Shown: piece after piece, positions 7,573-31,500 of the stretch | Layout: every line of letters starts with the position of its first letter | Position numbering within the stretch: position 1 is the stretch's first letter | Assembly: GCA_030604405.1 (NCBI GenBank) | Contig: JAUVVY010000038.1 | Location: 1 to 41,452, forward strand | Length of the DNA stretch: 41,452 nt | Reading direction: 5' to 3' | Origin: a bacterium | GTDB taxonomy: Bacteria > Armatimonadota > Zipacnadia > Zipacnadales > UBA11051 | Made by a program: the position numbers and the translations under genes | The notes under the pieces: generated by a model | Seen by the model: only the letters and a program-made list of their open reading frames with translations | What the model was told of the DNA's origin: nothing | Databases searched by the model: none

Positions 7573-7882
7573 GCGTTACATCGGGGTGAACGGCATCGCC
7601 TGGGGAGATTCTTGGGGAAAACAAGATGAGCGTTGTGCACAAGAATAGTGTGTCGGGGCACAATTTCGCGGGTTTATCCACAGAAAACGGCCTCTGCAAG
7701 CGGTTTACCACAGACTTTTCCACATTCTGCCACCAAGCATCACCATTGTGGAAAACTGCGTACAGACGAAATTAAAGAGGCGAAAGTCCATTCTTGGGCA
7801 CGCACAGAGCTATCGTTTTCCACAGTTTAGCCATGGAAAAGTGAGCACAATCAGCCGGTTATACATGCCGTAGCACGAAAGG
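7573..7882. other. Intergenic DnaA-box cluster, candidate replication origin or DnaA-titration site
   Basis: This gap has no gene but holds an exact DnaA box TTATCCACA (7674-7682). TTTTCCACA occurs at 7716-7724 and 7816-7824, and on the minus strand at 7747-7755. A swapped variant TTTACCACA is at 7704-7712, and the palindrome TTGTGCACAA (7633-7642) reads as a one-mismatch box on both strands. Six sites in under 200 bases is far above chance in GC-rich DNA. A mild AT-rich patch (7768-7782) lies between boxes. It could be oriC, part of a split origin, or a DnaA-binding regulatory site. The dnaN cluster lies 12 kb away with another box-bearing region upstream of it. Confidence 0.6.
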
Positions 7883-16838: not shown

Positions 16839-17492
16839 TCACTCCTTCCGCCGCTGTGCCGCACCGCTGCCCACTGCAGTGGCGCAGGCGATACAGTAGG
16901 GGCCGATTTCGTTGTGCAGCATCCCGCAGATGGTGCAATTGCGGTATCCCCGCTGCTGCTTCAGACGGCGCCGTTTGAGGTCGTTGGTCAGTGCCTTCAG
17001 GAAGCTTCGGCGGAGTTTTTCATCGGCTATTTCGCTGGCAGCCGCCTCGCAGAAGGCCACTTCTTCTTCGCTTAGGGCGACCTGTTGCAGCTCTGCGTCC
17101 TCAATCACAATCTGCATCGGGCGCTTCAACTGTGCAGCGATACTGCCGGCGGCGCGGCCCGCGCTGGACGCCCGGATACTTTTGACATATCTGCCGCCCA
17201 GGCGTTCGTTGAGCCGGCTGATGATCTCGTCCTGATCCATCTGCAACTGCTGAGCGGTGGCCGGCGCGTCACAAAGCACGCGCGCTTCGCCATTTTCGAC
17301 ACCCAGAATCTGCGTCTTGCGCGCATACCACGGCCCCACCACTTGCGGCCACAGCTCGATACACAACGTGGAGGTGCCGCGCTGCAGGTTGCCAGTGGAG
17401 GCGAGATAGTCGTTGAGCGCCCGCTGCAGCGGCCCCAACTTGCCGTCTCTCTTCCCAAGATCCCTGAAACTTCTCAAGTCGCTGTGCCTCAC
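16839..17492 (-). CDS. dciA: DciA-like (DUF721) helicase-loader protein with C-terminal zinc ribbon
   Basis: 217 residues. Residues about 20-105 (LGPLQRALNDYLAS...LWPQVVGPWYARKTQIL...LQMDQDEIISRLNERLGG) match DUF721/DciA, the ancestral loader of the replicative helicase DnaB. The C-terminus, absent from short DciA proteins, is a zinc ribbon with C186, C189, C200 and C203 preceded by a basic stretch (RRRLKQQRGYR), suggesting nucleic-acid binding. The start is GTG, overlapping the recF stop as GTGA (17489-17492), so translation is coupled. The position after dnaN and recF fits a replication role. The DUF721 assignment is good; helicase loading is inferred from the family. Confidence 0.8.
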   Translation of the reverse strand: MRHSDLRSFRDLGKRDGKLGPLQRALNDYLASTGNLQRGTSTLCIELWPQVVGPWYARKTQILGVENGEARVLCDAPATAQQLQMDQDEIISRLNERLGGRYVKSIRASSAGRAAGSIAAQLKRPMQIVIEDAELQQVALSEEEVAFCEAAASEIADEKLRRSFLKALTNDLKRRRLKQQRGYRNCTICGMLHNEIGPYCIACATAVGSGAAQRRKE

Positions 17493-18649
17493 TGCATTTC
17501 GGCCGCGCCAGGCGTTGTCTGCTCGATTCTGCCGTCTTCGACCCGGAAAAAGTCGGCATCGCTTCGCGCGGCCAGGACTTCATTCAGCACCGGACTGGTG
17601 ATGATTAGCCCCTGCAGGTGCTGAACCAGTTCCAGGATGCGGCTGCCGCGGCAGACATCAAGCTCGGAGAGGCAATCATCGAGCAGCAAGAGCGGCGGCT
17701 CCCCACGCCATGCCGTCACCACATCGGCCTGGGCCAGCTTCAGGCTCAGTGCCGCGGTGCGCTGCTGGCCCTGCGAGCCGTACCTGCGCAAGGCCGTACC
17801 GTTGATGATGATGGAGAAATCGTCGCGGTGCACGCCGACGGTGGTATAGCCGTACTCGACATCGCGGTCCTCGTTTTGTGCCAACAGCTCTGCAAAGCGC
17901 CCCTTGCGCGCCTCGTCATCATCACTGTCGGCCAAGTCGCCCCGGTAGCAAAGCACCAGCCTCTCCGCACCGTCGCTAAGATCACCGTGCACCAGTTCGG
18001 CGGCCTCGCTCAGCGTCTGTGTGAACTCCTGCCGGTCTGCGGCGAGTGCCGCTCCCGCTTCGATAAGCTGGGTGTCCCACGGTCCCAGGCCGCTGCGGGG
18101 CGCATCGGCATGGCGGATGGATTTTAGCACTTGATTGCGCTGGCTCAAAGCCCTGCGATAGCGCTGCAAGTCATCGAGATAGCGGGGCCGCAACTGAGCG
18201 GTGGCCACATTCAGAAATCTGCGCCGGTAGCCCGGCGAACCCTTGACGATATTGAGGTCTTCGGTGGAGAACATCACCACCGGCACGCGCCCGATCATCT
18301 GCGAGACGCTGTCAATGGCTGCGCCGTCCATCTTGACCTGTTTGGCCGTGGTGATCTGTTCGGCTTCGCCGGCGTGCTCACCGGGCAGGGTTATCGAGAT
18401 ATTCGTTGCCTGGTTCTGCGTGGAGACAAACTGCCCCTGCAGGCGGCTGTGGGGCGCGCCGGAGCGGACAAGCTGGCGGTCAATGTGCGTGCGTGGTGAC
18501 TTGGTGGTGGCCAGCAGGTGGATGGCTTCGAGTAAGCTGGTCTTGCCAGACGCATTGGGGCCGACGATAATAGTCAGCCCCTGTGAGAATTCCATCTGCA
18601 GCTCCGGATAGATGCGAAAGTTCTCCAGAGCGAGTTTGGTGATGTGCAA
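17489..18649 (-). CDS. recF: DNA replication/repair protein RecF
   Basis: 386 residues from a TTG start, ten bases after dnaN, with GAGG upstream. The SMC-like ATPase has Walker A GPNASGKTS (30-38), the IGRVPVVMFSTEDLNIVKGSPGYRRRFLN segment, and signature plus Walker B near the C-terminus (GQQRTAALSLKLAQ, PPLLLLDDCLSELD). Length is normal. RecF helps load RecA at single-strand gaps with RecO and RecR. The order dnaN-recF is conserved in most bacteria; dnaA, which usually precedes dnaN, is not in this window. Confidence 0.96.
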   Translation of the reverse strand: MHITKLALENFRIYPELQMEFSQGLTIIVGPNASGKTSLLEAIHLLATTKSPRTHIDRQLVRSGAPHSRLQGQFVSTQNQATNISITLPGEHAGEAEQITTAKQVKMDGAAIDSVSQMIGRVPVVMFSTEDLNIVKGSPGYRRRFLNVATAQLRPRYLDDLQRYRRALSQRNQVLKSIRHADAPRSGLGPWDTQLIEAGAALAADRQEFTQTLSEAAELVHGDLSDGAERLVLCYRGDLADSDDDEARKGRFAELLAQNEDRDVEYGYTTVGVHRDDFSIIINGTALRRYGSQGQQRTAALSLKLAQADVVTAWRGEPPLLLLDDCLSELDVCRGSRILELVQHLQGLIITSPVLNEVLAARSDADFFRVEDGRIEQTTPGAAEMQ

Positions 18650-18659
18650 TCCCGGCGCC

Positions 18660-19772
18660 TCACATGATCTGCATGGGCATTAGGACGTACAGGTAGTTCT
18701 CATCGTCCGCGGGGCGCAGCAGGCCGGAGTTGAGCGGGCCGGAAAGCTCGATGAGCAGCTCTTCGCTGTCAATTGCCCCCAGCATATCGAGCATGAACTC
18801 GGCGTTGAAGGCGATCTCGGCCTCGTCTCCCTCCAGCGAGATCTCGAGGGTCTCTTCAGCCTCACCGACATCCTGGCTCTTGGCGCTGACCGTCAGGGTC
18901 TCGCCTTTAGCGCGCAAGACTACTCGGTAAGCGTCCTGCCTGGCGACGACAAGCGCGCGGTCCAAAGCACTTGCAAGTTCATCGCACTTGACAGTGATCT
19001 TCTTGTCGCCACCTGTAGGGATCACTTTAGGATAGTTGACGAACTGCCCATCAATGAGCCGCGAACCAATCACCGTCCCGCCCACGACGAATTCAACCTG
19101 ATTCTGAGAAATGTGTATCTCGGCTTCTTCTTCGGCGTCCGGGTCAAGTATGCGCTGCAGCTCGACCAATGGCCGACGCGAAATGATCGCCTCCTGATCG
19201 CGCTGGACCTCGGAGGCAAGCAGGCTCTCATACAGCGCCAGGCGATAGGTATCGGTAGCGACCGTCTCCAACTTCTTGCCTGATATCTTGAGCAGCGTGC
19301 CGGTTAGGATCGGCCGCGTCTCGTCGGTGGAAGTGGCGAAGACTGTGCGGTCTAGAATATCAAGTAGATCGGCCTGCGTCATGGAGAAGCTGGTAGGGTC
19401 GTCAAGCTCGGGAAGCTGCTGAAAATCGTCGGCCGGCAGACCGCGGATATCAAAGTCCGAGTGCTTGCCGGTTATCTTCAAGGAATTGCTTTCGTCGGCG
19501 GCCAAGCTCACCGGTCCCGGCGGCAGCCTTCCCGCCAGATCGGTCAGAATCCGCGCCGGCACGGTTATGGTACCTTCCTCGGCCGCCTCTACCGCCATTG
19601 TCGTCTTCACGCCGATGAACTCCATGTCGGTAGCTACCAGGATTAAGTTGTCCGCAGCCGCCTGCAAGAAGATGTTATTCTGGATCGGCTGAGTGCTGCG
19701 GCCAGATACGCCCCGCGATACAAGCTGCACCTTCTCATACAACGTGTGCTGCTCACAGGTAACGCTGAACAT
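18660..19772 (-). CDS. dnaN: DNA polymerase III beta subunit (sliding clamp)
   Basis: 370 residues from the ATG at 19772; the in-frame TTG six bases earlier is only three bases from the strong AGGGAGG site, so ATG is preferred. The three clamp domains are all present. Recognisable parts include PARILTDLAGRLPPGPVSLAAD, the FATSTDETRPILTGTLLKI segment and the C-terminal YVLMPMQI end that binds partners. It encircles DNA and tethers the polymerase. It is the first gene of the leftward dnaN-recF-dciA-rtcB operon, preceded by a 1.1-kb gene-free region with origin-like sequence. Confidence 0.97.
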   Translation of the reverse strand: MFSVTCEQHTLYEKVQLVSRGVSGRSTQPIQNNIFLQAAADNLILVATDMEFIGVKTTMAVEAAEEGTITVPARILTDLAGRLPPGPVSLAADESNSLKITGKHSDFDIRGLPADDFQQLPELDDPTSFSMTQADLLDILDRTVFATSTDETRPILTGTLLKISGKKLETVATDTYRLALYESLLASEVQRDQEAIISRRPLVELQRILDPDAEEEAEIHISQNQVEFVVGGTVIGSRLIDGQFVNYPKVIPTGGDKKITVKCDELASALDRALVVARQDAYRVVLRAKGETLTVSAKSQDVGEAEETLEISLEGDEAEIAFNAEFMLDMLGAIDSEELLIELSGPLNSGLLRPADDENYLYVLMPMQIM

Positions 19773-20049
19773 GCTCAAACTACCTCCCTTGGATATTCAT
19801 GCTTCGACGAGCTCAGTAGAGACACTTCGACACTTCGGCGGGCTCAATACAGGCAAAGCTCAAAAAAAGCCGCCCGGATCAAATCCACAAACAGCCACGT
19901 CCCCACGCCAGACCGGTGTGACAACGCGCCTGGCCATCTGTTTCCTCACCGGCTACCGCCATGCCTGCTTGCCCACCGTAAACGGATCAGGCATTAGATG
20001 CAACGGTGCCGAAAGCCTGGTAGAAGTCTGTATGGATTTGGACTGCATA

Positions 20050-20079
20050 ATTGTACATCTCTTGTCGGGTACTTGTCCA
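20050..20079 (-). promoter_or_regulatory. Candidate dnaN promoter
   Basis: On the minus strand TGGACA (20079-20074) and TACAAT (20055-20050) are separated by 18 bases and point towards dnaN, about 270 bases from its start. A DnaA-box-like site (20086-20094) lies just upstream, which would allow control by DnaA. The match is moderate and other promoters may exist. Confidence 0.35.
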
Positions 20080-20085
20080 CTGTTG

Positions 20086-20408
20086 CTATCCACATGCCAG
20101 GTGTTAAGAGCCAGATTCGTGTCTGTGAGATGTGGCTGAATTGAATGCTCTGTAATCTTCGGAGGTGGTATGCAAACAATAGATGTTTGAGGGCGAGATA
20201 TAGGTTATCCCCGGGTTGTATTGGTACTAGATTCTATATTAAAGGCTAGTAGTCGTAGTAGTAGGCACGTGGATTTGGTGGAAAACTAGCTCTAGGTCAA
20301 GCGCCGCAGTACCTCGTCGTGTTGATAAGGCTGGTGAAAGACAGCAAGCCCTGTCCACATTACCCACATCCGCGAAAGTTACCCACATTTTCCTCAGCCT
20401 TTTGCACA
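20086..20408. other. Candidate chromosomal origin (oriC): DnaA-box-like sites plus TAG-triplet run
   Basis: Box-like sites are CTATCCACA (20086), GGTGGAAAA (20277, minus-strand box with one mismatch), CTGTCCACA (20351), TTACCCACA (20360 and 20379) and TTTTGCACA (20400), spaced 9, 19 and 21 bases in the right-hand group. At 20247-20264 six triplets read TAG TAG TCG TAG TAG TAG. This resembles the DnaA-trio (repeated 3'-GAT-5') that DnaA uses to open bacterial origins beside a DnaA box. An AT-rich stretch (20221-20243) lies just beyond it. Boxes to the right of the trio are in the expected direction. The site is directly upstream of dnaN, a classic origin location. Individual boxes mostly carry one mismatch. 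Confidence 0.6.
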
Positions 20409-20894
20409 GGTTGTCGTCAGGAAATCTAGAGCACACAATTACAAGGCAATGTCAACTGCAAGTCCAGGCTGCGGTGTTGACCATTACAGAATGATGCCTC
20501 GTGACAAGGAAAATTCCGCGCCGGCACGGAAACAACCTGCCAATGGAGATGTATAGCCTCCCGGGAAAAGGTGTTTGAGCATGACTGAACGGAAGCAGGC
20601 GCGGCTGGCTTTTCTGGGCGTGGGCCGGACCTGTGGGACAGCGCGAAGGCTCTGGCTATCGGTGAGGCCATCCATGACAGCGTCCAAAGTTGTTGAGTGA
20701 GCACAATGAATTGCGCCCCTACGGCCGACGCTGTGATGCGACAGGCAAAACGTTCTACCGACAATTCGTACAGGCACCCGCCGTGTGCCTTCACCTTGCT
20801 ACCAGGGCTTACTTAAGTTAATGTTAGATGTGCAGTGCGGGATGTGGTGCGGAGACGGGGCGGCACAACGCTGTGAACAGAAGGTGGGTTCCCG

Positions 20895-23855
20895 ATGGCT
20901 GAGCCATCAGCACAGCATGGACTGGCACTGGTCTTCACCGACATCGAGGGCTCGTCGGCGCTGTGGGAGCAGTTCGGCGATGACTTCATGGTGGCGATGG
21001 AAGCTCACAATGAGCTGCTGCGCGGGCTGTGCGGAGACCTGCGCGGTGAAGTCGTCAAAGAAGAAGGCGATGGCTTCTTCATTGTGTTTTCAGAGGCTGA
21101 GTCGGCCCTGAGGTTCGCCTTGCAGGCCCAGCAGCGGCTGCAGGAGTACAACTGGGCGCAGCACGGGCCGCAAAGCGTGCGAGTGCGGATGGGGCTGCAT
21201 TTCGGTGCTGCCTGGCAGCGCGGAGAAGACTTTTTCGGGCCGGAGGTCAACAGAGCGGCGCGGATCTGCGAGGCGGGTCATGGCGGGCAGATCCTGGCAA
21301 CAGAAGCGTTCATGGATGCCTGCGGAGAGCCAGAGAGCGAAGTGGTCATAACTGACTTGGCCCGGCATCGCCTCCGCGGCCTGGGCGAGCCGGAGCATCT
21401 CTACCAGCTAACGCTGGAGCACTGGGAGCAGCAAGAATGGCCGGTGCTGCGCACGGTTGATGATGTGCCCACGAATCTGCCGGCGCAGGTGACCAGTTTT
21501 GTCGGACGGGAGAAGGAGCTTAGCGATCTCGCGGCCCTGCTGACCGATCAGGAAAAACGCCTTATCACACTCACCGGCCCTGGCGGCAGCGGCAAGTCCC
21601 GGCTGGCGCAACAGGCAGCCGCCCACGTCATGGAGCATTTCCCCGACGGCGTGTTCTAGATTGAGCTGGCAGAGATCACCTCGCCTGACGCTGTAGTTGG
21701 TGCCATCATGCAGGTGCTGAAGATAGAGCCAGCCCCTGAGAAGTCGGCCGTTGAGCAGATCGCCCAATACGCAGGTGGCCGCCAGCTATTGGTTGTCCTG
21801 GACAATTTCGAGCATGTAATCGCCGCAGCCGACACGGTCGCTGACATAGTCCAGCACGCCGATGGAATCAACCTTCTGATCACCTCCCGCGAGATACTTC
21901 GCGTTGCGGGCGAGCATATCTATAAGGTCATGCCGCTGGTGGTGCCGGAGCCGCCGATCAACTGGCAGACACTGTCGCAATATGACAGCGTGCATCTGTT
22001 TCTGGACCGGGCCCAGGCGATCGCCGGGGAATTCGAGATTACTCTCGATAACGCCGCCGCTGTTGCCGAAATCTGCATGCGCCTCGATGGGATCCCGCTG
22101 GCTTTGGAATTGGCCGCGGCCTGGATACGCGATTTCACGCCCGAGCAGATAGTGGAGCAACTCGGCCCGCAGTCCCGTGTTCTGACTTCGCGCGTGCGCG
22201 GGGTTGCCGACCGGCAGCGCACCCTCCAGGACACTCTCGAGTGGTCCTACCGTCTGCTGGAGGAAGACGAGGAGCGCGTGTTCCGCATGTTGTCGGTGTT
22301 TCAGGGCGGCTTTTTCCCGGATGCCGCCGAGGGCGTCTGCGGAGCGGGCGCTACCGACAGCGTCATCAGCCTCCACGATAAGTCACTGCTCTACACTCGC
22401 GAAGTCCTCGGCCGACGGCGCTACTACATGCTCGAAACCATCAAACAGTTCGCTGCCGACAGGCTGCAGGACGCCGGCGAAGAACAGGACGTCAGAGCCG
22501 CCTTCCACACCTACTTCACGGCGGCGGGGGCTGCCCTGTTCGAGCCAATCGCGGGACCAGAGCCAGGTCCCTCATTCAGCGAAGGGGAGACCGAGCTTCC
22601 CAATCTCTCTCAATGCCTCCACTACGCTGCTCTGGAGCACCGCCCCGAAGGCATCGAGGGCCTGACAAAAGCATTGAACACTCTGGTCAACGGCAGGCCC
22701 GCGATTGCGCGGTCGCTGCTGCCGGTTGCCGAGGAGGCCTGGGGCTGGGCGCAGCAGCATCCCGGACAGCCGTGGACATACTGTCTCGCGCACACGGTCC
22801 TCGTTCAACTCCACACCGCCTATGAGTTCCAGAGGGCCCTTGACATCGCAGATGACGTACTCGCTGCAATCAAGGCATCACAGGACGAGAGCCGTATCTG
22901 GAGGTGTTTTGTGGTCCTCTGTCATTGTGCGCTTGATACGCGGGATTCGGATCTGGCCCGGCGCTGGGTTGATGAAGCCGAGCAGTACATGCCAGCACCG
23001 GAACGCTGCCTGGAAATGGCCCTTATCTACACCTTGCTGGGCATGCACGACCGCGCTATCGAGTGTGCGCGATATGTTCTCGCGCAACTTCCTCAAGACG
23101 GTCCCGGTCGCAACAGATCGGCTGGTCTCTCTCGTCTCATCGCGGCGGCCCTGCTCGGCGGACGAATCGAGGAAGCGTATCGAGCATCAGTGGAGCTTAT
23201 CGCAGTCGGCGAGTCGGCACTGCGGGGTGATCCGATGGTCGAGTTCTACACAACTAGGGATGCCATCGCTCCACATGCCCTGACCGGGCGCGTAGCGGAG
23301 GCAATTCAACTTGCTCGCGAGGCCGCCCGCATGGCGTCGTCATTCGCGCCGGAGACGGCTGCCATCAAATTGGCCGGGACTCTCCAGCCCATCAACTACG
23401 CGCAATTGTGGGCTCTGGGCGTGGAGTTGGCTGACGACCTGTATCCAGATTGGCCGCCACCTGAATTGACAGGAGATCGTCTGGTCTGGGCGGGCATAAC
23501 GATGGGCGAGGCCTGTGCGCGCACCGGTCGCGCCGACCGTGCCGTCAGCGAAATCGAGCGCGTTCTCAACGCTGACTGGGACTGGGATGGCGACGAACGC
23601 TCCTCCGGCCGCGCTCTCAAATGCACCGGCGAGGTCCTCCGCGTCACTGGCAACCTCGCCGAAGCCGCCAGCGTCACCGAGCTCGCCGCCCGCCTCCTCG
23701 ACAACCACCCCTTCCTCAAGGGCACGTGCGAGGACCTGCTCGACCTCATCGGCGAAGATATGGAGCCAGAAGAATTTGAGGCGGCGCGGCAGGCGGCTGC
23801 CGACCTCAAACCCTCCGAGGCTATAGAACGCGCCCGCGAGGCGTTGGGAGTTTGA
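20895..23855 (+). pseudogene. Adenylate cyclase-STAND ATPase-TPR regulator interrupted by an amber codon
   Basis: Read through, this would be about 986 residues. Residues 10-175 are a class III nucleotide cyclase with metal aspartates D16 and D59, K55, and the N119/R123 pair, all intact. A STAND/NB-ARC-type ATPase follows: Walker A GPGGSGKS near residue 228, Walker B LLVVLDNFEHV, and the RQRTLQDTLEWSYRLL segment. The rest is TPR-like alpha-helical repeats. Codon 255 (21657-21659) is TAG in the frame ...GVF-stop-IELAEI; relatives usually have an aromatic residue here, so TGG to TAG is likely. The 715-residue frame after it (from 21708 by its first ATG) is undamaged. It may be a recent pseudogene, a split pair, a readthrough case or a sequence error. 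The start follows AAGGTGGG by six bases. Confidence 0.8.
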
Positions 23856-28541: not shown

Positions 28542-31500
28542 ATGCGCAACGCAGTTCACTTCGGCCTGGCACTACTGCTCGTGAGCATCCCGGTGTCTGC
28601 CGCGCCGGACATCAGCAAGCAGGACGGTCTCTACATCCTGGAAAATGAGCTTTTGCGCGCTGAGGTCAAGTACTCCGAACTCTACCGCCTGACCTACAAG
28701 CCCACCGGCAAGGAGCTGATGACACCCGGCTGGCACGGCGTCATCAATCTCTGCGGCAAATCCAAGGTCCCGGGCAAAGACGAACCAACCTGGCTTTTTC
28801 AGGACTCTCTGGGCAGGAACCGCAAGTACCGGATCGAAACCGCCGACGATCAGGCCACTCTCATCGTCAACTTCGACTGGGTGGCGAGGCCGGATGACCA
28901 GCCTCCCTACTATGCCGTTGAACAGAAGCTGACCATATTCGATGACAAGCCCTACCTGCGGGTGCGCTATCACATCGTCGCCAAGCAGCCGCCTGACCCG
29001 CCCCCGGCCAGCTTCATGGTGCAGTCCTCCGGCACGCAGGGAACGCATTTTGTCGAGCCGGACGGGGAATTGCGAGTGGAAAAGCTTGGCGATGCGCGGA
29101 TGGCGGGCATGCGCACCGACCCCGACAGTTACTGGTTCGCCATCTGGGACCAGCCGTCCGGGCATTTCACCGCCTTCTTGCGCCCCGGCCAGACCGACCC
29201 GACGCGCTGCGTGTTTTGCAAGGACTCATGGTACGTCTCGCGCTGGTCCGAGCCATTCCTGGGCGAGCCGGGCCAGAGCCACGCCGAAGAGCTGTGGATC
29301 ATCGCCGGCAAGATTGACGGCGAGGCCCCCGCGCCAATTGCCGAGGCGGCGCACGATGGCTACGCCTTTGCCGAAAAACATGAGCCCATTCTGGCGACGC
29401 TTCAGAGCCCCTACGTTACCCACGAAGAGCTGGTCGAACAGGCGCAGCGTTTGCGCGCCGACGGCAAGGGCGATCACATCGTATTCAAGAACGAACGCCT
29501 CTATGTGGACGGCAAGCCGTTTCTGCTCTTTGCCCCGTGGGGCACTTATGAGGACAGGCTGCCTACTTACAAGAAGTATCACCTGACCGGCGTCTTCGGG
29601 CCACCTCGGCACCTGGATGCCTGCGCCGAGCACGACCTGATGCTGGTGACTGCAGCCCTCGAATGGCCCAAGTACAGGGGCGAAGAGTTGGAGGAGCACA
29701 TAGAAAAGCTCAAGGACCATCCGGCGGTCCTCGCCTGGTTCTTGCAAGATGATTTTCCCGGCAACCTGGAGATGCTGGCCAATATCGAGGCGATCCGCAA
29801 ACACGAAACCCACATCCCGACCGTTGCCGATGTCGTCGGCTATGATGCCTCCCGGCGACAGGCCAGCGCCTTTGTGGACATCTGCGCGCCGTACACGTAT
29901 CCGGCACCGGTTCACACGTATCGCTGGTATGCCCACTATCTCGAGCACGATCAGAAGATCATGGACCGGCAGTTCAACTGGACCTGCCCGCAGGCGCGGA
30001 CCTATTCGGGCTTTGCCCGCACCGGCCAGTCCACCGACTACTTTGTGGACTATCCGACCGCCGCCCAGATGCGCCTGCAGACCTATCTCGGCTTGGCTCA
30101 CGGCATCCGCGGCTTCATGTACTGGCCCGGCCGGGCGCTAGTTGACTACAAGCTTTCCGAGTTGGGCATCCTGTGCCTGGAAGTCGAGCCGGTTACCGAC
30201 CTGATTGTCGAGGCTGAGAAGAACTACGAGGCCGCCTCCGCCGATAACGAGCAGATAGAAGTGCAGCGGATTGACTGGGGCCAGCACACGCTGCTTTTCC
30301 TGATTAACTATCGCGACAAATCCGAGCGCTGGCCGACGGGTAAGCTGGCACGCAAATTCAGGGTCACTGTCAAAGATGTCGCGCCCGACGTGAGGGCCTA
30401 CAGCATGACCTTCGACAAGGACCTGCACATCGGCCGGGCGACAAAGTCCGGAGATGATTTGCAGTTTGAGGTATCAGGGCTTGACGTGGCGGCGATGGTG
30501 CTTTTGACCGGAGACGGCGGCTACGCCACAAGCCTGCAGCGCGAGCTCGAGCAAAGAGAGGCGGAAGCCACCGAGTTTGCCACCACCACGAACAAGTACA
30601 TGGCCGGGAAAGTTTACGGACTGCTCAGCAAGCTGGCCGGCATGAACGCGCCGCTGGGACGCGGCCCCGAGTTGTACAATGAGGCGGTCGCGCGCCTTGA
30701 TACAGAAGATACCTTCACCGGCCAGCGGCAGGTGGCCCGGCTGTTGCGGCAGGCGATGGGCGAGGCGCTTGCCCAGGCCGATGAGCTTGCCGATTATGCG
30801 CCGCTGTATGCCCAAAATAGCCTGCTCATCAACGTCTGGAAGCTGCCGCAGTTCATGGCCAGCTTCAATTTCCGGGCGCTCAACGAAGGCCAAGCGGCGA
30901 GTCTTGACCCAGCACCGGCAATAGAGCCGATGTCTCCTGCAGCCGAGCCGGAACAAGCCACGCCTATTGAGATCGGCAATATCATTGCCGGTGGCGAGGG
31001 ACGCGGCAGCAGCGGCCATGTGGCCGACCTGCAGGCCGCGACTACCTACTGCGTATTCCTGCACTCCGGAGGCTATGCCCTGCCCCTCTATTCCGACGAA
31101 ACAGCGTACCTGGCCGGCAACAGTGATTTTGTGGGTCTGCCGAACGACAACCTCGCCCTGACGGTTTCGCTGTGCCGGCCGGCGGAAGGCATGAAGCTTC
31201 ACTTCACCGCACCCAATACCGCAAAGGCGTTCGGCGTCCTGGCCGCCGCGCCGATGCAGATCGGCCAGGAGGTAACCGGCCCTGAGCTTGCGGCAGCGAG
31301 TCCCGTCGCAGTCTATGAGCTGCCGGCGAAAAAGGGCGACTCCTTTGAAGTCACGATGCAGAGCGCCGAGGGCTGTCACTTCGATCTGATACTATGTCAG
31401 GCCCATCCGCGCTGCGGACAGGTTCTGGCCTCGGGCCGCGCGGATGGCAAGGAGCCGCTGGCCTTGCGCTGCACGCTGCCTGATGAGGCGCCGCTGACAG

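Follow-up and report, generated by a model that had tools for sequence, protein, structure and literature searches.

Where does the chromosome of this uncultured member of the Armatimonadota begin its replication, and does a run of TAG triplets upstream of dnaN mark the place? The stretch of DNA that was analysed, here called the window, comprises 41,452 nucleotides and is contig C26 of a 4.37 Mb genome in 96 contigs (G000). An earlier note on this DNA had proposed that the region directly upstream of dnaN-recF is the origin or its unwinding part. Both gene assignments are backed by Pfam: dnaN, encoding the DNA polymerase III beta clamp, is located at 18660-19778 and recF, assigned by SMC_N/AAA matches and by its position after dnaN, at 17489-18649, both on the minus strand. 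Scans of the window for Rfam families and tRNAs gave no matches. We are highly confident that 20205-20408 is the origin of the chromosome, or the core at which it unwinds, and that it is built as a basal unwinding system (BUS). The proposal of the earlier note is thus supported by conservation throughout the order, by the match to the BUS and by GC skew in relatives.

The published definition of a BUS asks for three or more DnaA-trios (3'-NAN-5', usually 3'-GAT-5') no farther than 16 bp from a DnaA box; frequently there are two boxes in tandem (PMC8287927). The window carries six trios, TAG-TAG-TCG-TAG-TAG-TAG, on the plus strand at 20247-20264, exactly where the earlier note had placed them; five are TAG, one is TCG, and the three next to the boxes form an uninterrupted TAG run. 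A short G/C-rich gap (GCA at 20265-20267, plus strand; GGA in G001) leads to two tandem boxes on the minus strand. Mismatches were counted against TTATCCACA. The trio-proximal box at 20268-20276 (CGTGGATTT on the plus strand), 3 bp from the trios, is weak with three mismatches, up to four being allowed for the second box of a tandem; it is of a GTGGA type that recurs at equal spacing throughout the order. The other, at 20277-20285 (GGTGGAAAA on the plus strand, TTTTCCACC on the minus strand), is conserved and lies 12 bp from the trios with two mismatches, the maximum for a box within 16 bp. On the left side of the trios, which the earlier note had rightly described as AT-rich, A+T amounts to 62% at 20201-20250. 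The AT-rich core at 20228-20246 (CTAGATTCTATATTAAAGG), conserved with G001, is the putative first unwound DNA.

Chance does not readily generate such an arrangement. In a genome-wide search TAGTAGTMGTAGTAG occurred a single time in 4.37 Mb, at this array. Scored for TAG trios within 16 bp of a box with at most two mismatches, the array was the top site of the window with TAG in five of six positions; 60 Markov sequences of 41 kb reached at most two of six, and 2000 sequences of 350 bp with local composition at most three of six.

Additional boxes surround this module. A box with one mismatch (TTATCAACA) is located on the minus strand at 20320-20328; it emerged from the box scan and is kept in G001. 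It is followed on the plus strand by a distal cluster at 20351-20408, found by the same scan and conserved in G001, G003 and G004, with boxes at 20351 (CTGTCCACA), 20360 (TTACCCACA), 20379 (TTACCCACA), 20388 (TTTTCCTCA) and 20400 (TTTTGCACA). Five one-mismatch boxes had been claimed before; this holds for 20360 and 20379, while those at 20277, 20351 and 20400 have two mismatches each. The boxes at 20320, 20268-20276 and 20205 and a second cluster at 7613-7824 had been absent from that list. The box at 20205-20213 (TTATCCCCG, plus strand, two mismatches), recognised by its conserved position, lies on the left, 33 bp before the trios, and faces inward. Six boxes within 300 bp were counted both at the dnaN-side cluster and at 7613-7824, compared with a maximum of two in 30 Markov sequences. 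G003 and G004 have stronger origin boxes than the window, and both carry a perfect TTATCCACA in the final distal position.

Next to the oriC of Bacillus subtilis the likeness is close: six trios of TAG type, a short G/C-rich gap, two tandem boxes, the spacing, the position upstream of dnaN and the orientation are shared (PMC8287927, PMC10721633). In the cryo-EM model of the B. subtilis BUS seven DnaA protomers hold six trios; Arg202 and Glu228 contact the guanine and Asn187 the adenine, and among middle-base changes tested in vivo cytosine was tolerated best (PMC10721633). The DnaA of the window's genome keeps the trio-contact residues, i.e. the equivalents of Asn187, Ile190, Ile193, Asn196, Arg202 and Glu228 of the B. 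subtilis model. The window differs in that dnaA is not adjacent, as in its whole genus, the boxes are weaker than consensus, one trio is TCG and there is an inward-facing box on the other side of the AT core. TAG repeats beside AT-rich DNA and a DnaA-box region are also a feature of the Thermotoga maritima oriC, with TAG repeats in the DUE (eTrio); there, three TAG repeats away from box 1 bind DnaA assembled on distal boxes, whereas in the window six TAG-type trios directly adjoin the tandem boxes (PMC10316083). By analogy with these characterised systems DnaA would bind the duplex DNA of the tandem boxes at 20268-20285, and DnaA on the boxes at 20320-20408 would help assembly there. From the tandem boxes a DnaA-ATP oligomer would extend onto the plus strand, capturing one trio of 20247-20264 per protomer. 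The AT-rich core at 20228-20246 would open, with unwinding of 20228-20264, and permit helicase loading.

Conservation was examined at increasing distance. Within the genus the upstream region is available in G001, G003 and G004. Compared to the window, DnaN is 91% identical in G001 and 67-69% in G003 and G004. In all three the trios, the adjoining tandem boxes and the distal boxes are kept while the surroundings change; the array consists of six TAG in G003 and of CAG plus five TAG in G004. From 20228 to 20415 identity with G001 is 93%, whereas the flanks have 66% and 69%. This indicated that the trio region is under continued selection. Each family of the order that was examined has a trio array, a short gap and GTGGA-type tandem boxes ahead of dnaN, and so do sister families of the class. 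The module is least convincing in G045 and CP070816, and contig ends cut the region in G002 and G007. The distance of the module to dnaN is mostly 80-340 bp, 390-505 bp in the window's genus and approximately 1.8 kb in G031. The conservation check suggested in the earlier note hence came out positive, with boxes and triplets kept in the three congeners and, by place and orientation, order-wide. The arrangement and the orientation to dnaN are also seen in other bacteria, at 21 strong BUS sites that belong mostly to Bacillota.

One might argue that the trios are a chance TAG run and that the boxes only regulate dnaN. Indeed, TAGTAGTCGTAGTAG is also met coincidentally, e.g. within the uvrB coding sequence of genomes of family f5, and a box-like site overlaps the putative dnaN promoter. 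The array of the window, however, is intergenic, sits beside boxes and goes beyond what shuffles produce. Because its position and orientation are conserved order-wide, and with skew in relatives pointing to the same place, we consider a chance run very improbable. The promoter-like site (TGGACA-18-TACAAT, 20050-20079, minus strand) is overlapped by the box-like TTGTCCACT at 20073. One such promoter pattern was found against 0.8 expected by chance; a similar sequence is present in G001-G004. As the overlap is similar in all members of the genus, dnaN may have come under DnaA control after it lost dnaA as a neighbour.

GC skew, a further check proposed in the earlier note, gave a divided answer. 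In G037 (contig C135) the cumulative minimum falls on the locus, at 49,029, with dnaN at 48,418-49,521 and dnaA from 49,848. In the CP070816.1 chromosome the minimum within a 200-kb stretch is at 2,955,605, with dnaA from 2,960,643; the minimum is within about 7 kb of the locus, and in twenty samples spaced round this chromosome cumulative skew was lowest just before the dnaA-dnaN locus. In G041 the sign of the skew turns from minus to plus at the trio locus. The minimum of G021 (contig C4) is at 68,269, within about 8 kb of the locus, the dnaN-dnaA gap lying near 60,100. A skew signal at the homologous place was thus observed in several relatives, alongside the elements, their geometry and their conservation. 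In the window, as in G005 and G008, a clean minimum at the locus was not found, and G016 displayed only a local change; for 20 kb left of the trio locus the skew of the window is positive. The support from skew thus comes from relatives and does not apply directly to the genome of the window; in the window's family, which lacks a skew switch, the origin call rests on homology and conservation.

The missing switch at 20.2 kb is one of two observations in favour of the main rival explanation, according to which the origin of the window's genus has moved to the second box cluster at 7613-7824, the trio region being a conserved relic or a dnaN control region. The other is the cluster itself. The intergenic region 7573-7882, 12.5 kb from the trio locus and beside an acyltransferase-like gene, contains six boxes: a perfect TTATCCACA, three copies of TTTTCCACA and two that are weaker. 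These boxes are stronger than those at dnaN, and in G001, G003 and G004 the homologous gene has a similar cluster next to it. Yet a trio scan of 7613-7824 detected no trio array. Further, the cluster is weaker in G005 and G006 and missing in G010 and G011, whereas the dnaN site is kept order-wide, and the 93% identity of the trio region with G001 signifies continued selection. A moved origin thus appears quite improbable to us. DnaA titration or control clusters of the datA/DBC kind are dense, intergenic groups of DnaA boxes away from an unwinding element. As far as sequence can tell, 7613-7824 resembles them, except that its neighbouring genes are particular to the window's genus. A titration or control site is the more likely role of this cluster, rather than an origin.

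The origin at 20205-20408 raises the question of where dnaA lies. In most families of the order dnaA immediately precedes dnaN in the same orientation, and the trios separate the two genes. All five genomes of the window's genus have dnaA on a separate contig. Fragmentation is not the cause in G000 and G003, where over 19 kb of sequence upstream of dnaN is free of dnaA. The neighbour of dnaA in G003 is a beta-lactamase-fold gene, and reading of the G000 contig by eye suggests the same neighbour there. With dnaA on another contig in this genus and adjacent in most families of the order, dnaA has come apart from the origin-dnaN-recF block, apparently before the species of the genus diverged. The earlier statement that dnaA is not beside dnaN is accordingly correct for this genus. 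DnaA would be supplied from the gene elsewhere, the origin staying beside dnaN. An origin at the separated dnaA was considered and rejected: on its contig, C50, a single box lies near dnaA and a trio array is lacking. The usual place of dnaA is taken in the window by a cyclase/AAA/TPR-type regulator (20895-23855) with a single in-frame amber codon at 21657-21659, as had been described. Separately, a 105-aa open frame in G000 (C17, 37986-38300, L002) shares about 80% identity at its end with the C-terminal part of domain IV of DnaA. Its four congeners have no match to this frame except the full dnaA. The frame may be a DnaA fragment or a decoy copy. Two bins contain two full dnaA-dnaN pairs each (G035, C81 and C89; G040, C273 and C323), probably reflecting mixed strains or contamination and not two origins.

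The left arm of the module permits a refinement at the same site. On the far side of the AT core, 25 of 43 genomes (12 genera) have an inward-facing box with no more than two mismatches, separated from the trio array by a gap of 28-40 bp, in the typical case 33-34 bp; none has one in the opposite orientation. Possibly, the AT core lies between two BUS modules that face each other on opposite strands, and one DnaA filament grows from each, opening the origin from two sides. In f5 the left box even carries its own trios, which have the TAC type and the 3-nt spacer of the main array of that family, e.g. TACTACTAC-GGC-CGTGGAGAA in G019, and the combined p over genera is roughly 2e-5. These data are set against others. 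The box as such is not special: it was present at 9 of the 21 BUS sites in other bacteria, mostly Bacillota, versus 2 in the control (gap 20-50), and hence is not confined to the order. In the window's genus a convincing left trio array exists only in G004, and the left array of f5 could be half of an inverted repeat. Since most genomes outside f5 score like shuffles in the left-arm trio test, two-sided opening stays a rival to the simpler reading, and we regard it as unlikely.

The trio type itself differs in one branch of the order. In 10 of 10 f5 genomes the dnaA-dnaN origin has TAC-type instead of TAG-type trios, in most of them in the left arm too, and f2, the sister family of f5 (pairing support 94/91), has mixed types (examples of f5/f2 trios are at 28567-28581 of G027:C272 and 16953-16967 of G031:C23). 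Matches to TAGTAGTCGTAGTAG away from dnaN were discarded as second origins: the f5 match checked for its frame is uvrB coding sequence (YYDYY), most of the remaining f5 matches read like it and none was accepted, and the match in G011 lies in a long open frame. Within the single-strand-binding motif, the DnaA proteins of f5 and f2 share the clade-specific residues His188, Met189, Ile/Val198 and Asp199 (B. subtilis numbering), with Cys192 in most f5. Of 359 DnaA columns, 18 are fixed in the four aligned f5 rows and differ from what the rest of the order has, f2 not counted; five of the 18 fall into the 15-column single-strand-binding motif (hypergeometric p 4e-4), an enrichment to be taken only as a lead because the alignment had been seen when this region was picked and the related sequences are not independent. 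A compensatory change for TAC trios at Arg202 or Glu228 was looked for and not found, both residues being unchanged in the f5 rows read. A natural co-divergence of DnaA and the single-strand origin code in f2/f5, possibly at a two-sided origin, can be proposed tentatively, though we would sooner bet against it than on it. A limited literature search retrieved no description of TAC arrays or of opposed trio arrays.

The locus is very probably a real BUS-type oriC, new to its lineage and ordinary in principle; a literature search found no origin work on Armatimonadota. What makes it interesting is that dnaA has separated from it, that a box faces inward and that a sister family has TAC trios. 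The TAC-trio relatives are a natural experiment on the reading of single-stranded DNA by DnaA, made precise by the cryo-EM model of the B. subtilis BUS. For the lineage, the finding would extend the DnaA-trio mechanism to uncultured Armatimonadota and would provide an origin marker for closing these genomes and for analysing growth rates, and it presents a case in which dnaA and a trio origin have separated while the origin stayed with dnaN.
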